Assembly: GCF_030268045.1 (NCBI RefSeq)
Contig: NZ_BSDC01000001.1
Span: 682,001 to 746,000, forward strand
Reading direction: 5' to 3'
DNA from: Geothrix edaphica
GTDB taxonomy: Bacteria; Acidobacteriota; Holophagae; Holophagales; Holophagaceae
Length of the DNA stretch: 64,000 nucleotides
Part shown: positions 4,961 to 12,835 of the stretch, in pieces
Layout of the letters: the number at the start of each line of letters is the position of its first letter
Numbering within the stretch: the first letter of the stretch is position 1
The notes under the pieces: generated by a model
Seen by the model: the letters and a program-made list of their open reading frames with translations, nothing else
Databases searched by the model: none
Told to the model about the DNA's origin: nothing
Made by a program: the position numbers and the translations under genes

Positions 4961-6262
4961 TCAGAGCTGCAGATGGAGGCGCAGGCCGCAGATGGTGGCC
5001 GGACCCCGGTCGCGGTTGAAGGCGAGGCGCTCGAAGCGCTGGGCCTCGAAGCTGAAAGAGCCGAGAGATCCAACGGCCAGGGCGTAGTAGGCATCCAGCA
5101 CACGCTCGGCCGAGTAGGCCAGGCGGCCGTCGCCCACCATGAAGCCGGACCCGCCGGCCACCAGATAGTCGCGGTGGTGCCGGTTGAGGCCGTTGGCCGC
5201 GAAGCCGAGCCCGACCCGGTCGCCACTGCGGCCCCAGGCCCTCCCACTGGCGGACAGGCCCATGGACAGGGTCCGCTCCACCTCCGTGAAGGCCCAGGAT
5301 TCCGTCTTCCCGTCATTCCACCCCGCCCGTAGGAACAGGCCCAGGCCCGGCGTGACGGCCTGCTCCGCGTTGAGCCCGAACCCATGCTTGGCGCGGCCGG
5401 GCACGCGAGTGGCTGTCACGTCCGGCGCCGCAGGAGCCAGCGCGAGGGCCTCCCGGTAGGACCCCATGCGCGCGTGGTTCTGGAAGGCGAGCAGGCGCAG
5501 GGCGCCCTTCTGGCCGCCGAGCTCGTGGTCGTGCTCCAGCTCGATCACCTCGCCGTGCGCATGGTGGACATCGTGGTCAAGCTGCAGCTGGTTCGCCTCT
5601 CTCGGCTCCATGAGGGACCCGGCCCGCAGGGCCCAGTCGTCGTGGAGCCACTCCAGCGCCACGCCCCAGGTGTAGCCGCGCGTATCCGCCGGGTAGTCCC
5701 AGGCCGCGTTGGCCCAGAGGCTCCAGTTGTTGAACTGGGTGCGGGCGTCATGGCTGTAGGTGTTGGCGTCGAAGATGTCCGTGCCCGACAGCTTGCCGGC
5801 CGTGAACACCACGCGGCGGCGGCTCTGGCGGGTGGCCACCTGGTTGGGGCCATCCTCCACGGCCTCGGTGGGCTCGCCCAGGTTCCAGGTCTGGCGCAGG
5901 AAGAGCCGGGCCAGGCCCGCTTTGAGCGTGGTGCTGTCCACGCGGTAGGTCTCTCCGTTCGGAGGCGCGGCGAGGCCCAGCACCCGGCTGACCCCGGCTC
6001 CGGCGAAGGCCTCGGCATTGGCATAGAGTTCCGCGCCCTCCCACAGCCGGCGGCCGGCGAAGACGGTGGTCGTGTAGGACCCCCGGACCTCCCGGCGGTC
6101 CTGGAGGCTGTTGTCGCCCTCGTAGGGGGCGGTGAACCCGCCGTGGCCCTGGAGCTGGTAGGTGAGCTGGACATGGAGGGACCAGGGACCCGGGGCCTCG
6201 GAAATCTGGGCCCCCAGGCCAGCGGAAAGACAGAGGGAGACAAGGGCGTACAGTCGCTTCAT
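4961..6262 (-). CDS. OprB-like outer membrane porin with His-rich segment
   Basis: A 433-aa protein with signal peptide ending AGLGAQ, alternating beta-strand pattern and an aromatic/hydrophobic C-terminus (LRLHLQL). Central motifs GKLSGTDIFDANTYSHD and AWDYPADTRGYTWG match the carbohydrate-selective OprB porins, which let solutes cross the outer membrane. Residues 229-247 are strongly enriched in His, Asp and Glu (DHDVHHAHGEV then ELEHDHE, six His in 17 residues), more than I expect at this place in the family. It is the last gene after an ABC permease and ATPase on the same strand (57-nt gap), so it probably supplies the outer-membrane step for that transporter. The His-rich loop raises the possibility of a metal or metal-chelate substrate; this is inference. 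Confidence 0.78.
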   Translation of the reverse strand: MKRLYALVSLCLSAGLGAQISEAPGPWSLHVQLTYQLQGHGGFTAPYEGDNSLQDRREVRGSYTTTVFAGRRLWEGAELYANAEAFAGAGVSRVLGLAAPPNGETYRVDSTTLKAGLARLFLRQTWNLGEPTEAVEDGPNQVATRQSRRRVVFTAGKLSGTDIFDANTYSHDARTQFNNWSLWANAAWDYPADTRGYTWGVALEWLHDDWALRAGSLMEPREANQLQLDHDVHHAHGEVIELEHDHELGGQKGALRLLAFQNHARMGSYREALALAPAAPDVTATRVPGRAKHGFGLNAEQAVTPGLGLFLRAGWNDGKTESWAFTEVERTLSMGLSASGRAWGRSGDRVGLGFAANGLNRHHRDYLVAGGSGFMVGDGRLAYSAERVLDAYYALAVGSLGSFSFEAQRFERLAFNRDRGPATICGLRLHLQL

Positions 6263-6318: not shown

Positions 6319-7617
6319 CTACTCCGGCGTGAGGACGCCCCGCTCCTCGCGATAGGCGAAGAGTTCCCCGAAGCGGCCCCACGCGACCAGGGTCTCGAAG
6401 GTCTTCTCCGGATCCTCCATGGGCAGCCGGGTGGCCAGCTCCTGGAGGAGGGTCTCCTCGGACAGCTCGCCCTCCTCGAGGTGCATCATCTCCTGCACCA
6501 CGCGGAAGAGCCGCAGCTCCAGGAGCTGGGCTCGCCACAGGTCCTTGCGGTCATCCATGTTGGCGTTCACGAACCGCTTGCCCAGGGGCGTGAGCAGGAC
6601 GGCGCGCTTGGGCGTGTCCACCAGGTCCAGCATCTCCGCGGCCTTCACAGTGGTGAGCACCTTCTCGAAGGCGACATGGGTGTGCGAGGCCACCTGGAAG
6701 AGGTCGCTGGTGCCGCCCTGGGTCTCCAGGAACTCCAGCAGGCCCAGGATGTCGCCGCTCTGGGCCATGGGCAGGGGCTCCACCTGGTCCTCCTGGGCGG
6801 CGGCGCTGGGGATGGGGGCGGTGACCTGCACGTCCGGGAGCTCGGCGCTGGTGAAGATGTCGTGCAGGTGGTCCACCAGCTTCATGAACTCGGGGGAGCG
6901 GCTGTCGCGGGGCCGGGCCATGGGCACCTCGACGATGGTCCGCAGGGTGCCCGGGCTGCCGGACAGCACGGCCACCCGGTCGGCCATGAGCAGGGCCTCG
7001 CGGATGGACTGGCTCACCATCACGATGGCCGAGGGGTTGCGCTCCTTGTCCGCCCAGATGTCCATGATCTCCGCGCGCAGTGCTTCCGCCGTGAGGGCGT
7101 CCACCTGACTGAAGGGTTCGTCCATGACCAGGATCTCGGGGTCCACCGCCAGGGCCCGGGCCACGCCCACGCGCTGCTTGGTGCCTCGCGAGAGCTCGCG
7201 GGGGAAGGCCTCCTCGAAGCCCTCGAGGCCGACCTTGCGGATGGCCTGGTGGGCCCGCTCGCGGACCTCGCCCTCGGGCAGGTCGCGGGCGCGCAGCACC
7301 ACACGGACGTTCTCCTCCACGGTCATCCAGGGGTAGAGGGCGAAGCTCTGGAACACCATGGCCACGCCCGGATTCAGGCCTTCGAGCTTCTCGCCGTGGT
7401 GGCGGACCTCGCCCTGGGTGGGGGGCATGAGGCCCGCCAGCAGCCGCAGCAGAGTGGACTTGCCGGAGCCGTTGGGGCCGATGAGGCACAGGATCTCGTC
7501 CGGCCGCACCTCGAGCCGGATGTCCTCGAGCACGCGCTGGACGCCGCCCCGGGGGCCGGGGAAGCGCATCTGGACGCCGCGGAGTTCGCAGATGGGGGAG
7601 GTGTAGGGCTGCTGCAT
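6319..7617 (-). CDS. ABC transporter ATPase, NitT/TauT type, with C-terminal AAA-associated domain
   Basis: A 432-aa protein. Residues 10-240 form an ABC ATPase: Walker A GPNGSGKST (47-55), Q-loop Gln90, signature LSRGTKQR (142-149, variant of LSGGQ) and Walker B ILVMDEP (162-168). The last 130 residues (about 300-432) form a separate mainly helical domain, as in nitrate/sulfonate-type ATPases that carry an 'AAA-associated' C-terminal domain, perhaps regulatory. It energises the permease encoded immediately upstream; the permease stop is 7 nt before this ATG. A GTG at 7623 would overlap, but ATG 7617 has GAGGTGG just upstream. No substrate-binding protein is encoded nearby. Confidence 0.9.
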   Translation of the reverse strand: MQQPYTSPICELRGVQMRFPGPRGGVQRVLEDIRLEVRPDEILCLIGPNGSGKSTLLRLLAGLMPPTQGEVRHHGEKLEGLNPGVAMVFQSFALYPWMTVEENVRVVLRARDLPEGEVRERAHQAIRKVGLEGFEEAFPRELSRGTKQRVGVARALAVDPEILVMDEPFSQVDALTAEALRAEIMDIWADKERNPSAIVMVSQSIREALLMADRVAVLSGSPGTLRTIVEVPMARPRDSRSPEFMKLVDHLHDIFTSAELPDVQVTAPIPSAAAQEDQVEPLPMAQSGDILGLLEFLETQGGTSDLFQVASHTHVAFEKVLTTVKAAEMLDLVDTPKRAVLLTPLGKRFVNANMDDRKDLWRAQLLELRLFRVVQEMMHLEEGELSEETLLQELATRLPMEDPEKTFETLVAWGRFGELFAYREERGVLTPE

Positions 7618-7624
7618 GTCCACC

Positions 7625-9373
7625 TCAGCGGTTGAGCGCGTAGCGGGTCTCGGCCAGGCGATAGAGCGGCACCCAGACGAGGCGGTTGAAGAGGACGACC
7701 AGGGTCGCCATGAGGAGGGCGCTCGCGGCCAGATGGGGCATGGAGCCCTGCTCAGTGGCCAGCACGACCTCGGCGCCCAGGCCGAAGGTCCGGAGCGTGT
7801 GCTGCCTGGTGGTGACGATCTCGGTGATGATGCTGGCGTTCCAGGCGCCTCCGGTGGCGGTCACCCACCCGGTGACGAGGAAGGGGAACACCGCCGGGAA
7901 GTAGAGGTTCCAGCAGCGCTTCCACAGGGACATCCGGTAGGCGGTGGAGGCCTCGCGGAGGTCCGCGGGGATGGCCTGGGCCCCCGCGATGATGTTGAAC
8001 AGCAGGTACCACTGGGTGGACAGCACCATCAGCAGCACGCAGCTCACGCCGAGCCCGATGCCCAGGGAGCTGAACAGCAGGATGAGCGACGCGAAGATCA
8101 GGGAGGAGGGGAAGGAGGCCGCCACCTGCACCACGGACTGCAGGCGCCGGGACCACTTCGGCGACATGCCGATCCACAGGCCCACCGGCAGGGTCCAGAG
8201 CGTGGCCAGGAACGTGGACAGGAGCACCCGCGACAGGGAGGCCCCGCCGGCCTTGAGCAGGACCAGCCACTTCGGGCCGCTCACCTCGGCCAGCAACCGC
8301 ACGACGGAGAACGCTCCCAGCGAGAGCAGCGCGAGGATGCCCACCATGGCCGAGGAGGCCACCCAGGACCCCAGCCGCCCTGGTCGCTGGAACTCCTCGT
8401 GGGCCTTCCGGATGAAAGCCGGGCGCGGGGTCCGCTGGTGCAGGCGCTGGTTGCGGCGGCGTTCCAGCCACTTCAGGAGGCGTGAGCGGCGGAAGAGGCG
8501 GAGGAGCCAGTTCTCGCCGGGATCCACCTCGCCGCCCTCGTCCACCTGGAAGCGCTGGGACCAGGCCACCACGGGTCGCCAGACCAGCTGGTCCAGCAGG
8601 ATCACCAGCACCAGCATGGTGAGGATGGCGTAGATCTGGGCGCGGGTGCTCCCCTGCTCCACCGCCGTGTTCATGTAGGATCCCAACCCCGGAAGCTGGA
8701 AGTTCTTGTTGCCCGCGTGGAAGGCCTCGGCAGACATGAGGAAGAACCAGCTGTTCGCCACGCTCACCATGGAGTTCCACACCAGGCCCGGCGTGGCGAA
8801 GGGGATCTCGACCCAGCGGAGCTTCTGGAGCCAGGTGAAGCCGTAGAGGCTGGAGGTCTCCTCCAGTTCCTTGGGCAGGGTCTTCAGCGACTGGTAGAAG
8901 CTGAAGGCCATGTTCCAGGCCTGGCAGGTGACGATGAGGAGGATCGCCGACAGCTCCAGGCCGATGTTGCTCCGGGGGAAGAGGGTGAGCATGAGCAGCA
9001 GCACGGGCGGCAGGAAGGCCAGCAGCGGTACGCTCTGGAGGATGTCGAGGATGGGCACCAGCACCCGCTCGGCGCGCGGGTCCTTGGCCGCCCAGTAGGC
9101 CACCACCAGCGTGAAGGCCAGCGACACGACGTAGGCCGCGATGGCCCGGATCAGGGACAGGAGGAGGTACTTGGGCAGGGCCCAGGCGCTGAGGGCGATC
9201 TCCACCGTGGGCCGCTGGACGGCAGTCCACTCCTTCCCCACCAGCCAGAGCGCCGCCAGCGTGCCCACGAGGGCCGCGAGCACGAGGAGGTCGATCCAGC
9301 GGCGGTGCCGGATGGGCGCCGTCAGCAGGTTCATCGCCTGGCCCCAGACAGTGTCGAGGAAGCGGTGGATCAT
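7625..9373 (-). CDS. ABC transporter permease with two fused transmembrane domains (NitT/TauT type)
   Basis: A 582-aa inner membrane protein in which two binding-protein-dependent permease domains are fused. Each half has several hydrophobic helices and an EAA-like loop: one around LEETSSLYGFTWLQKLRWVEIP and one around LREASTAYRMSLWKRCWNLYFP, which contact the ATPase. Between the halves is a basic cytoplasmic linker (RRSRLLKWLERRRNQRLHQR). Fused permeases with a long-tailed ATPase form a recognised group related to nitrate/sulfonate/bicarbonate importers. The substrate cannot be assigned. It heads the permease-ATPase-porin operon, and its own ribosome binding site is weak, in contrast to the strong one of the small leader ORF about 150 nt upstream. 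Confidence 0.9.
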   Translation of the reverse strand: MIHRFLDTVWGQAMNLLTAPIRHRRWIDLLVLAALVGTLAALWLVGKEWTAVQRPTVEIALSAWALPKYLLLSLIRAIAAYVVSLAFTLVVAYWAAKDPRAERVLVPILDILQSVPLLAFLPPVLLLMLTLFPRSNIGLELSAILLIVTCQAWNMAFSFYQSLKTLPKELEETSSLYGFTWLQKLRWVEIPFATPGLVWNSMVSVANSWFFLMSAEAFHAGNKNFQLPGLGSYMNTAVEQGSTRAQIYAILTMLVLVILLDQLVWRPVVAWSQRFQVDEGGEVDPGENWLLRLFRRSRLLKWLERRRNQRLHQRTPRPAFIRKAHEEFQRPGRLGSWVASSAMVGILALLSLGAFSVVRLLAEVSGPKWLVLLKAGGASLSRVLLSTFLATLWTLPVGLWIGMSPKWSRRLQSVVQVAASFPSSLIFASLILLFSSLGIGLGVSCVLLMVLSTQWYLLFNIIAGAQAIPADLREASTAYRMSLWKRCWNLYFPAVFPFLVTGWVTATGGAWNASIITEIVTTRQHTLRTFGLGAEVVLATEQGSMPHLAASALLMATLVVLFNRLVWVPLYRLAETRYALNR

Positions 9374-9470
9374 GGCCGGTCCGGAGGAGCGGATGGGGCG
9401 CAGCCTTGCGCGCCGACATCCCGTTCAGGGGGCGGATTCGGGGGAGCCGGAAGAACGGGGGATGGCCACC

Positions 9471-9524
9471 TCAGCGGGCGGCGCACCACGACGGAGGTTC
9501 GGAGAGGTCGGATTGTCGTCCCAT
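9471..9524 (-). CDS. Possible 17-codon leader ORF upstream of the ABC permease
   Basis: ATG at 9524 follows a near-consensus Shine-Dalgarno (AAAGGAGG, minus strand, 9531-9538). The frame reads MGRQSDLSEPPSWCAAR and stops with TGA at 9471. Nothing else on this strand uses that ribosome site, and the peptide resembles no protein known to me. The ribosome site lies inside a perfect hairpin (separate entry), which favours a leader-peptide role in regulating the operon. It could instead be a chance ORF. Confidence 0.3.
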   Translation of the reverse strand: MGRQSDLSEPPSWCAAR

Positions 9525-9533
9525 CGAACCTCC
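9493..9533 (-). promoter_or_regulatory. Hairpin sequestering a strong Shine-Dalgarno in the ABC-porin leader
   Basis: On the minus-strand transcript GGAGGTTCG (9533-9525) is followed at once by ATG and, after a 23-nt loop, by the exact complement CGAACCTCC (9501-9493). The 9-bp perfect stem would hide the ribosome binding site of the 17-codon leader ORF. This looks like a translational switch or RNA-binding-protein site for the downstream ABC/porin operon. It matches no riboswitch class that I recognise. Confidence 0.45.
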
Positions 9534-9552
9534 TTTCCGGCGCCAGGGCCAT

Positions 9553-9584
9553 GGCCAGTCTGACCCCGGGACTGGCCCCGGTCA
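9553..9584. promoter_or_regulatory. Overlapping inverted repeats between the ABC operon and the kinase gene
   Basis: GGCCAGTC (9553-9560) and GACTGGCC (9570-9577) form a perfect 8-bp inverted repeat with a 9-nt loop. A second, weaker pair, TGACC (9561-9565) and GGTCA (9580-9584), uses bases inside the first, so the two folds exclude each other. They lie between divergent genes and may be an operator or part of the leader RNA. No promoter boxes are obvious nearby. Confidence 0.3.
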
Positions 9585-9667
9585 ACACGGGAAGCGCTTC
9601 ACCTGAGGCCTCGATGGGGGCACCATGAACGATTCAACGAGGAGTGGAATCGTGCGGAACGGCAGCC

Positions 9668-12600
9668 ATGGCGACCGCTGAGGAGCGGGTGCTGGCCCTG
9701 GCCGTGGCCCGCGGGTTCCTCGAACCCGGCGACATCAGCGGCCAGCTGGATGACCTGGTGGCCTCTGGGCGCCTGGACGAGGGCGATCGCCGCATGCTGG
9801 AGCAGGAGCTGGCCGACCTGGAGGCCGCCGAGGCGGACCACTGGTCCATGGAAATCACCGCGCAGGGGCCCAGGGCGTCCGACGGCCCGGGCACGGAAGG
9901 GGGGGCCGAGTCCCCGGTGCCAGGCCCGGAGGCGTCCATCCCACCGGCCGGGCTCCGGCAGAGCGGAATCTTCCGGGCCCGGACCCTCGAACGGTGGGGA
10001 CGGTTCGAGGCCCTGGAGCTGCTCGGCGAAGGGGGCATGGGCCGGGTCTTCCGGGCCACGGACTCCCGCCTCCGCCGCGTGGTGGCGCTCAAGCTCCTCC
10101 GGCGGGACGATCCCGCGCTCCTGCAGCGGTTCATCCAGGAGGCCCAGCTCCAGGCCCGGATCGACCATCCCAACGTCTGCCGGGTGCATGAGGTGGGCGA
10201 GTGGCGCGGCCAGCCCTACATCGTCATGCAGTTCATCAATGGGGAGACCCTCCTGAAGGCCGCGTCCACGCTGTCGCTGGAGGCGCTGCTGCGGCTCATG
10301 ACGGAAGTCTGCGAAGGCGTCCACGCGGCCCATCGCCTGGGCCTCATCCATCGCGATCTCAACCCGGCGAACCTCATGATGGAGCGGCTCGAGGACGGGT
10401 CCACCCGGGCCTGCGTGCTCGACTTCGGGCTGGCCAGGGGCCTGGAGGGCGGCCGGTTCACGGAAACCGGGCAGGTGATGGGCACCGTCAGCTACATGTC
10501 CCCCGAGCAGGCGCGGGGGAAGGCGGGCCTGCTGGACCGCCGGTCGGACATCTATTCCCTGGGCGCCACCCTCTACGAGCTGCTGACCGGGGATCCGCCC
10601 TTCGGGGGGGAGGGGCTCGACTGCATGACGCGCATCGTGAAGGACGATCCGGTGCCGGTCCGGACGCACGTGCCCACCATTCCGCCGGACCTCGATACGG
10701 TGGTGCTCACCTGCCTCCAGAAGGACCCGCGCCGGCGCTACGCCACCGCCCGGGCGCTGGGGGAGGACCTCCAGCACATCCTCGACGGCGAGCCCATCCA
10801 GGCCCGCGCCGCCACGCCGGTGGAACGGATGATCCACTGGGCCCGGAAGCGCAAGGCCCTGGTGGCGGCCTCGGCCGCGGTCTGCCTGTCCATCGCGGTC
10901 TTCGGCGGGCTGGCCGTGCGGGAGCGGCTGCGGGCCCAGACCCGGGCCGCCCATGCCCAGCGGTTCGCCCAGGCCGCCGAGCGCATCGAGGCCCTGGCCC
11001 GCTACCTGCGGATCCAGCCGGCGCGGGATCTGACCCGCGACCAGGCGGATCTCCGGGCCCGGGTCGAGGCCCTGACCCGGGAAGTCCGGGCCGCGGGGCC
11101 GCTGGCGGAGGCGCCGGGTGCCTACGCGCTGGGGCGGGCCCGCCTCGCCCTGGACGATCCGTCCGGCGCCAGGACCCACCTGGAACGGGCCTGGGCCATG
11201 GGGTTCCGGACGCCCGAGGCGGCCCACGCCCAGGGGCGGGCCCTGGCCGCGATCTATCAGATCGAACAGGGGAAGGCCTACGCGCTGCCCGACCCGGACC
11301 TGAGGCAGCGGCGGCTGGAGGAGTTGATGCAGACGCTGAGGATTCCCGCGGCTGACTGGCTGAGGCGCGGCGCCAGCGCCAGCCTGGAGCCCCCGGCCTT
11401 CCGGACGGGGCTGCTCATGCTGATGGAGGGCCAGCCGCAGGAGGCGGTCCGGCTGGCCCGGGAGGCCCAGGCGCAGGCTCCCTGGTTCTACGAGGCCCTG
11501 CGGCTGGAGGCGGAGGCCTGGCTCGCCCAGGCCCACCTCGCGCAGGAAGAGCCGATCACCAGGCCCGCCCTGGCGGCGGCGGGCCGGGCCCTGGCGCAGG
11601 CCGAGCTCCGGGCCCCCTGCGATGTGGACCTTCTCCGCCTCGACCTCCGGCGCTGGCAGGAGGCGGTGGCGCTGGGCTGGCAATCGGGGGCGGACCCCCG
11701 CGGGCCCGTCCTGGCCCAGGTGGCCGTGGCGGACCGCTGGACCCTGCTGGAGCCCTCCGCGGCCGAGCCCCTGGCCTGGCGGGCGCGGGCGCGGGGGGAG
11801 ATGGCCCGGTACCTGACCTACCGGGAGAGCGACCCGGGGGCCTGGCTGACCCAGGCCAGGACAGATGCGGCGGAGGCCCTGCGGCGGAACCCCGATGAAG
11901 TCGAGGCGTTCACCGCCCGGGCTTCTGTCCTACGCACGGAAGGCTTCCGCCTGTTGAGCGCGGGGGCGGATCCCTCCCAGCCCCTGAAGGAGGCCATGAC
12001 CGCGGCCGATCGGGGCCTGCAGCTCGATCCGGGGCACATCGTCCTGATGAACATCCGCAGTTCCGCCCTGCTCGCCTGGATCGACCACACCCGACTGAAG
12101 GGCAGCTACCGCCGCGACGCGGTGGCGCCCTACCTGCAGCAGGCCCGGGCCACGGCGGATGCGCATCCGGGGGACGCCTACTATCAGTCGAGCCTGGGGG
12201 GCGTGGCCCAGGCCATGGCGAAGGCCAGCCTGGCCTCTGGAGGAGATCCCTCTGCCGACGCGGAGGAGGCGGTCCGGGCCTATGAGGCGGCCCTGAAGAC
12301 CCAGCCCGGCCACGTGGGGTTCCATCGGGGCATCCTCATCGCCCGGGCGGTCCAGGCCAAGGCCCTGGCGCGGGATGGCCGGGATCCCGAGGGTGCAGTG
12401 GACCTGGCGCGTACGGCCTTCCATCGCGCCCGGAAGGCCCAGGTCCCCCTGGCGACCCTGACGCCCTTCCTCATGGAGGCGCTCCTGGCCGCCGCCATGC
12501 AGGCGCAAGCGCAAGGCCGGGATCCCAGCGGCTACCTGGACGAGGCCGGCCAGCTGCCGGTCCAGCTGGATGGCAGTGCGGAAGATCCCATCGAACCGGG

Positions 12601-12835
12601 CGCCATCCGGCTCCGCTACCTGGCGTTCCTGCTGCGCACCGGGCACCGGTCCCAGCCCCCGCACGTGCGGGAATCAGGGGAGGAACTGGCCCGGTCCCTG
12701 GTCAGGCTCAAGCCCGTGGATCCCGGGTTCTGGATGGCCCTGGCCCAGTTCCGTGAGGCCTGCGGCGATTTCGCGGGCGCCGCCCAGGTCCGGGCGAGGG
12801 GCAGGGCTCTGCATCCAGGCTGGCGGGACTTCTAG
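9668..12835 (+). CDS. Membrane-anchored Ser/Thr protein kinase with TPR-like C-terminal region
   Basis: A 1055-aa protein. An N-terminal acidic region of about 110 residues precedes a Hanks-type kinase domain (about 112-385): Gly loop LGEGGMGRVF, Lys142 in VALKLL, catalytic loop HRDLNPAN (228-235), DFG at 252-254 and SPEQARG. The usual Lys of HRDLKPxN is Asn here. A basic stretch (ARKRKA) and one membrane segment (about 396-418) follow. The remaining 630 residues are helical, Ala/Arg-rich and consistent with degenerate TPR or other helical repeats, presumably outside the membrane if the kinase is cytoplasmic. Such kinases phosphorylate signalling or envelope proteins. ATG 9668 is preferred over a GTG at 9644. 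It stands alone on its strand and ends tail-to-tail with the next gene. Confidence 0.9.
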   Translation: MATAEERVLALAVARGFLEPGDISGQLDDLVASGRLDEGDRRMLEQELADLEAAEADHWSMEITAQGPRASDGPGTEGGAESPVPGPEASIPPAGLRQSGIFRARTLERWGRFEALELLGEGGMGRVFRATDSRLRRVVALKLLRRDDPALLQRFIQEAQLQARIDHPNVCRVHEVGEWRGQPYIVMQFINGETLLKAASTLSLEALLRLMTEVCEGVHAAHRLGLIHRDLNPANLMMERLEDGSTRACVLDFGLARGLEGGRFTETGQVMGTVSYMSPEQARGKAGLLDRRSDIYSLGATLYELLTGDPPFGGEGLDCMTRIVKDDPVPVRTHVPTIPPDLDTVVLTCLQKDPRRRYATARALGEDLQHILDGEPIQARAATPVERMIHWARKRKALVAASAAVCLSIAVFGGLAVRERLRAQTRAAHAQRFAQAAERIEALARYLRIQPARDLTRDQADLRARVEALTREVRAAGPLAEAPGAYALGRARLALDDPSGARTHLERAWAMGFRTPEAAHAQGRALAAIYQIEQGKAYALPDPDLRQRRLEELMQTLRIPAADWLRRGASASLEPPAFRTGLLMLMEGQPQEAVRLAREAQAQAPWFYEALRLEAEAWLAQAHLAQEEPITRPALAAAGRALAQAELRAPCDVDLLRLDLRRWQEAVALGWQSGADPRGPVLAQVAVADRWTLLEPSAAEPLAWRARARGEMARYLTYRESDPGAWLTQARTDAAEALRRNPDEVEAFTARASVLRTEGFRLLSAGADPSQPLKEAMTAADRGLQLDPGHIVLMNIRSSALLAWIDHTRLKGSYRRDAVAPYLQQARATADAHPGDAYYQSSLGGVAQAMAKASLASGGDPSADAEEAVRAYEAALKTQPGHVGFHRGILIARAVQAKALARDGRDPEGAVDLARTAFHRARKAQVPLATLTPFLMEALLAAAMQAQAQGRDPSGYLDEAGQLPVQLDGSAEDPIEPGAIRLRYLAFLLRTGHRSQPPHVRESGEELARSLVRLKPVDPGFWMALAQFREACGDFAGAAQVRARGRALHPGWRDF

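Follow-up and report, generated by a model that had tools for sequence, protein, structure and literature searches.

A conserved leader ORF whose proline codons pair with its own Shine-Dalgarno sequence precedes candidate Mg2+ uptake genes in Geothrix and its relatives

We analyzed a 64,000-nt stretch of the Geothrix edaphica genome, positions 682,001 to 746,000 of contig NZ_BSDC01000001.1 (the window, to whose positions the coordinates below refer). On its minus strand lies an operon that, by domain content, encodes an ABC permease with two BPD_transp_1 domains (7625-9373), an ABC ATPase with an AAA_assoc_C domain (6319-7623), and an OprB-type porin (4961-6262), as expected from an earlier note that had placed a leader element upstream of an ABC-porin operon. 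The best curated matches of this ABC transporter family are transporters of the nitrate/taurine type. In the direction of transcription, the leader comprises a promoter-like TTGACC-N17-CAGACT, the sequence AAAGGAGG, a 17-codon ORF, and a 97-nt C-rich spacer that ends at the permease. The first gene of the operon indeed has the weak ribosome site that the note described, CCGGACCGGCC-ATG, and this site is kept in relatives too. A divergent Ser/Thr kinase gene (9644-12835) adjoins the leader; in some relatives (e.g. L005 and L013), the end of an apparent MoxR gene abuts the leader in its place.

The leader ORF, MGRQSDLSEPPSWCAAR (9471-9524, minus strand), runs from an ATG at 9524-9522 to a TGA stop codon at 9473-9471 and is preceded by the Shine-Dalgarno sequence (SD) AAAGGAGG (9529-9536), which is conserved in relatives. 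Codons 9-12 (GAA CCT CCG TCG; 9489-9500), which encode Glu-Pro-Pro-Ser, double as the anti-SD. Pairing between the two forms a perfect 9-bp stem, P1, in which the 5' arm GGAGGTTCG (9533-9525) is matched with the 3' arm CGAACCTCC (9501-9493), the latter ending in codon 11. The claim that the SD and the ATG both lie within this stem holds for the GGAGG of the SD, which is inside; the AAA and the ATG are just outside, with the ATG in the loop. Folded alone, the 47-nt hairpin has a predicted energy of -20.6 kcal/mol (z -2.74), which 4 of 200 shuffles equal or surpass, and the whole 161-nt stretch, folded as the plus strand, shows no exceptional stability (z -0.67; 47 of 200 shuffles as stable). 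A second hairpin, P2 (GCCGCC-CGCTGA-GGTGGC; 9465-9482), carries the stop codon of the leader ORF in its loop; in the consensus fold of 28 leaders of the near clade, its six pairs are kept in most.

The home genome has a single copy of the leader element, and its 3.16 Mb contain the pattern GGAGGTT-N20-40-GAACCTCC just once. The same genome has one CorA, and neither an Nramp nor an MgtE was found in it. A search of plasmid DNA gave no match. At the locus, Rfam yields no family, the only match scoring 17.6 bits where the gathering score is 50, in keeping with the note, in which no known riboswitch was recognised; for the M-box (RF00380) in particular, there is no match in 8900-10100 even at a relaxed threshold. 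A literature search that was largely limited to open-access papers returned nothing on this leader or on Geothrix leader peptides, and nothing on an M-box before an ABC transporter.

We then looked at relatives, 65 of 100 of which have a permease match (weak ones included). Fifty-three upstream regions contain the permease start (L019 and L002, which lack it, were excluded), and the element is present in 45 of these. Four of the remaining eight have an unrelated upstream sequence (L022, L035, L044, L052). The leader is absent from three (L034, L045, L046), where the permease ATG directly follows the end of the upstream gene or the promoter. Since these three genomes are fragmented, an assembly error is possible, as is a precise loss. 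In L040, the element has decayed: the SD is deleted, and the anti-SD and the stop codon have changed along with it.

With a covariance model (R2), we searched 93 genomes of the class and detected the element in 63, every one from the family of the window (77 genomes). Of 396 genomes of the phylum, 33 gave a detection, again in that family only; among 71 homologous loci of other phyla, the model found nothing (best E 1.7). All 81 elements, namely 45 permease leaders and 36 others (paralogous copies included), belong to one family, Geothrix and its relatives. Two weak matches to R1, G091:C151 (E 0.002) and G002:C1:899561 (E 0.005), were dropped as chance because R2 reported no genome outside the family in the phylum sample drawn; the G002 match was itself not reported by R2. 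Also treated as chance was a weak match in another family (L096:455-523), with a stem AAGAGGGT/ACCCTCTT and an ORF containing GDAPSS. A scan for leader ORFs with an acidic-Pro or Pro-Pro motif upstream of 74 outside homologues gave loose matches at seven loci, of which only one, L213 from Armatimonadota, looks similar. There, a TTG-start ORF containing NLAEPPSS, with the SD AAAGGAGCC, lies 266 nt upstream of the permease match and is possibly an independent case.

The motif (E/D)PP(S/L) is found in the peptide of 80 of 81 elements (EPPS in 67, EPPL in seven, DPPS in six), the sole exception being the second element of L262, with a degenerate DPSS, and its codons are those of the anti-SD. Each of the 81 elements has a start codon in frame with the motif; being in frame was the condition of this count, so that the finding is the existence of such a start in every element. 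The distance from the start to the acidic codon is 24, 21 or 36 nt, and the acidic residue sits at codon 8, 9 or 13. In the near clade, the synonymous share of single changes in codons 2-12 is 0.45 versus 0.29 expected, for pairs that are not independent. The Ser codon, which lies outside the stem, varies synonymously (TCG, TCA, TCC, TCT). In contrast, codon 10 is CCT in 44 of 45 permease leaders, and the corresponding Pro codon is CCT in 80 of 81 elements; since CCT accounts for only four of 215 Pro codons in seven genes of the window, base pairing constrains the codon too. The conservation of Glu-Pro-Pro is partly confounded with its anti-SD role. Taken together, these patterns suggest that the leader ORF is probably translated.

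The earlier note had proposed a search for covariation of the stem in related genomes, and such a search separates the two parts of P1. The outer stem, GGAGG/CCUCC, is nearly invariant, with no double changes in 33 permease leaders; because it scarcely varies, it is no proof of pairing by itself, and we rejected it alone as covariation evidence. The inner stem, however, shows compensatory change. Across 39 distinct elements, paralogues included, P1 has 14 double-change cells compared to 6.7 in shuffles, none of 500 of which scored as high. The outer pair 14-58 is U-A in 28 elements and C-G in four, and the inner pair 16-54, which links a base in the non-coding SD-ATG spacer to a codon base, is G-C in 22 and U-A in ten. 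Hairpins assembled from the arms of different leaders are weaker (p 0.00085). The near clade, to which the window belongs, has a register without a bulge, so the inner helix is valid for part of the set.

Comparison of the leaders also makes the promoter visible, which a scanner for consensus promoters and terminators did not report; nor did it find an intrinsic terminator. In the window, a -35-like hexamer, TTGACC (9580-9585), and a -10-like hexamer, CAGACT (9557-9562), are separated by 17 bp. The pattern TTGAC-N17/18-CANNNT occurs in 44 of 45 leaders. In most of them, the transcript start predicted from it precedes the SD by 15 nt; in the window, it falls near 9550. The note had named two observations that would speak against its reading, transcription starting downstream of 9493 and a stem not conserved among close relatives. 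Given this promoter and the presence of the element in most orthologous upstream regions, the sequence yields neither.

The region just upstream of the leader SD is predicted to form a second, long-range helix, P0, in which the transcript 5' end (9536-9550) pairs with 9372-9389, the segment that holds the permease start codon and its weak ribosome site. In the consensus fold of the 28 near leaders, the partner of the 5' end is the stretch immediately preceding the permease ATG. In a swap test, the 15 nt before the SD served as the 5' arm and an 18-nt window, moved over 67 offsets, as the 3' arm. The advantage of cognate pairs peaks exactly at the permease start, both among 19 leaders (z -4.74) and among nine leaders, one per genus (z -3.94). 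P0 is not upheld as the best thermodynamic partner: in only 3 of 44 leaders did the best window lie no more than 8 nt from the start. In isolation, the 5' arm often pairs better elsewhere in this GC-rich sequence. Some of the P0 tests, including the best-partner test, left out L049 because of a long insertion. The swap test gave no signal for the Nramp leaders described below, whose arms are nearly invariant (10 of 11 used; L262 was omitted because its motif is degenerate). Two leaders of genus g8, L050 and L247, have an SD that is itself complementary to bases preceding the permease ATG, the match being GGAGG/CCTCC in one leader and GGGGG/CCCCC in its counterpart. The comparisons support coevolution of the two arms of the predicted P0 helix.

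The genes found behind the other copies of the element point to Mg2+. The 36 further elements in the family precede OprB genes (14), Nramp genes (12), and permease genes (eight), with two cut by contig ends; one of the Nramp genes is distant from its element, at +654, and one OprB alignment starts only at +644. In G015, OprB, Nramp-MgtE_N, and ABC genes lie together, and every set has a leader of its own. The Mg2+-type metal site of NRMT proteins is described as carrying an Asn-to-Gly change in helix 1 and a Met-to-Ala change in helix 6 (PMC8806188). By eye, all four leader-associated Nramps that we examined have DxxG in helix 1 and the Met-to-Ala change in helix 6, the residues at the site being DNDAGG and TTIAPW. 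The Nramp partner, identified in three islands, is an MgtE_N/CBS protein, and pairing of an Nramp gene with an MgtE-like partner has been described (PMC4072509). By this signature, the leader-associated Nramps look like Mg2+-type (NRMT) genes. For an NrmT relative of Acidobacterium capsulatum that has an MgtE-like partner, the same source reports transport of Mn2+ instead of Mg2+ (PMC4072509).

The ABC system itself has a link to Mg2+ in another phylum. Permease and ATPase form a pair across phyla, with both genes in 80 of 83 loci examined; the homologue sample of the permease comprised 80 of 586 relatives found. Of 49 loci across phyla searched with Rfam, two, both from Clostridium (L187:4517-4682 and L201:4509-4674), have an M-box Mg2+ riboswitch upstream of the permease. 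Among 206 Clostridiaceae genomes searched, 16 have the permease (L231-L246), and in 15 of these 16 an M-box lies directly upstream on the same strand, L236 being the exception. This makes the ABC operon part of Mg2+ physiology in Clostridiaceae, and it is from this association that we infer a Mg2+ role for the Geothrix operon. The ABC system may thus be a previously unrecognised importer of Mg2+. A full MgtE gene lies near the ABC genes in L200 and L212, a Chloroflexales and a Microcoleus record.

We conclude that the regulatory element at this locus is real and conserved and that it matches no Rfam family. Of the modes of control that the earlier note had suggested, RNA folding and a leader peptide gain support from the conserved ORF, SD, and anti-SD and from the compensatory change; nothing supports a binding protein. 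The reading that we favor, with some confidence, is a cis-acting translational switch that is based on the leader ORF and controls Mg2+ uptake genes in these soil bacteria. When Mg2+ is replete, the Pro codons of the ORF would hold the leader SD in P1, and the transcript 5' end, which adjoins the leader SD, would hold the ribosome site and start of the permease in P0. When Mg2+, the presumed signal, falls, ribosomes on the leader ORF would pause or drop off at Glu-Pro-Pro (codons 9-11). A ribosome there would cover the anti-SD arm, so that P1 could not re-form, and the leader start, roughly a ribosome's length back, could take up the next ribosome. The footprint of this second ribosome would open P0 and free the permease start, giving induction at low Mg2+. 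The ORF, P1, P0, the promoter, and the recurrence before genes of Mg2+ type, on which this scheme is built, emerge from comparison of the sequences.

The closest working analogue is mgtQ of Salmonella, in which, as described in PMC8092293, hampered translation of a short acidic ORF makes the ribosome site of mgtB, a Mg2+ transporter gene, accessible. Like mgtQ, the Geothrix leader has a short ORF, a strong SD, and acidic codons, and it is proposed to release a transporter gene from an inhibitory stem at the level of translation. By that account, though, mgtQ is intergenic within its operon, has eight codons, and uses alternative stems 1:2, 2:3, and 3:4, and what matters are its acidic residues, at codons 2 and 5, not Pro (PMC8092293). 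In the Geothrix leader, the ORF stands at the transcript 5' end and supplies the anti-SD through its own Pro codons, and a predicted long-range helix covers the main start; by eye, no sequence relation to mgtQ is apparent. The mgtL leader of enterobacterial mgtA (PMC11282234) is likewise a 5' leader peptide with an acidic-Pro motif (EPDP) before a Mg2+ transporter gene. It is described as acting through a Rho-dependent terminator and has its motif at codons 2-5 rather than 9-11, and it belongs to another phylum and gene set. Two traits of the mgtL/mgtQ type recur here: a short ORF with its own SD before a putative Mg2+ transporter gene (81 elements, with Nramps of NRMT signature) and an acidic residue beside Pro (80 of 81), later in the peptide than in mgtL and mgtQ. 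If our reading is right, the Geothrix element works like mgtL and mgtQ; nothing shows common descent, for its architecture is its own and our searches detected it in a single Acidobacteriota family.

The mgtL precedent also suggests attenuation. In such a scheme, full translation of the leader at high Mg2+ would expose the C-rich spacer to Rho, and pausing at Glu-Pro-Pro would prevent this. The spacer (9374-9470; C 0.46, G 0.28) is a possible Rho-loading region: C exceeds G in all 45 spacers (mean 0.45 versus 0.29), and 1.8% of the 100-nt stretches in the window, both strands counted, have a C-minus-G as high as that of the Geothrix edaphica spacer. In L049, the spacer is 267 nt long instead of about 90, an apparent insertion. 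Attenuation would, however, leave the coevolving P0 helix on the permease start superfluous, and the scanner found no intrinsic terminator, so we regard it as unlikely. Given that all 45 spacers are C-rich, Rho could still act together with the translational switch.

A direct sensing of Mg2+ or another ligand by the RNA, with the leader ORF as expression platform only and the peptide irrelevant, would be in line with a structured, covarying leader. It has precedents in the M-box (ykoK; RF00380), which governs homologues of this ABC permease in Clostridiaceae and also controls NrmT genes (PMC4072509), and in the translational M-box of Mycobacterium tuberculosis pe20, reported to have an SD/anti-SD platform and a conserved small ORF in a Mg2+ context, as here (PMC12810186). 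Yet RF00380 is a 169-nt aptamer without an ORF, and pe20 is described with an M-box aptamer upstream and a different peptide, with a single universally conserved Pro (PMC12810186). At the Geothrix locus, by contrast, there is no Rfam match, we saw no sizeable conserved aptamer between the predicted start site and the permease, and the near-universal (E/D)PP(S/L), with synonymous Ser changes outside the stem, argues that the peptide matters; we think this possibility quite unlikely.

The Pro-Pro pair present in 80 of 81 elements would also suit a leader peptide that senses translation capacity (EF-P activity or prolyl-tRNA) instead of Mg2+, and the Salmonella leader ORF mgtP is reported to respond to charged tRNA-Pro (PMC8092293). 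The downstream genes, though, are of metal-uptake types, not translation or proline genes, and the same ABC system is under an M-box in Clostridiaceae, which makes such a sensor decidedly improbable. Finally, the nearly invariant outer arms and their position just downstream of the promoter could mark the inverted repeat as a DNA operator of a metal-responsive repressor, with an incidental ORF. Three observations make this very hard to credit: the start-to-motif distance shifts by 3 or 12 nt and by no other amount, a base of the SD-ATG spacer and a codon base show compensatory change, and there is coevolution with the permease-start site about 150 nt away.

Beyond the translational switch, which remains our preferred reading, a broader one is possible, and we advance it only tentatively: Holophagaceae may have their own ribosome-based Mg2+ sensor, in which the destabilising Glu-Pro-Pro codons of the peptide also form the anti-SD for its own start and which serves throughout the family as a regulatory cassette on three gene types, and the two-gene ABC system may represent a new class of Mg2+ importer across many phyla. 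Placed under an M-box in Clostridiaceae, this ABC transporter family is a candidate Mg2+ uptake system. What is new here is the target gene set of such a leader and the possible new Mg2+ transporter behind it. If the reading is right, leader-peptide Mg2+ sensing would have a further origin, in a second phylum and with another architecture, and the idea of the ribosome as a Mg2+ sensor would thereby become testable outside enterobacteria.
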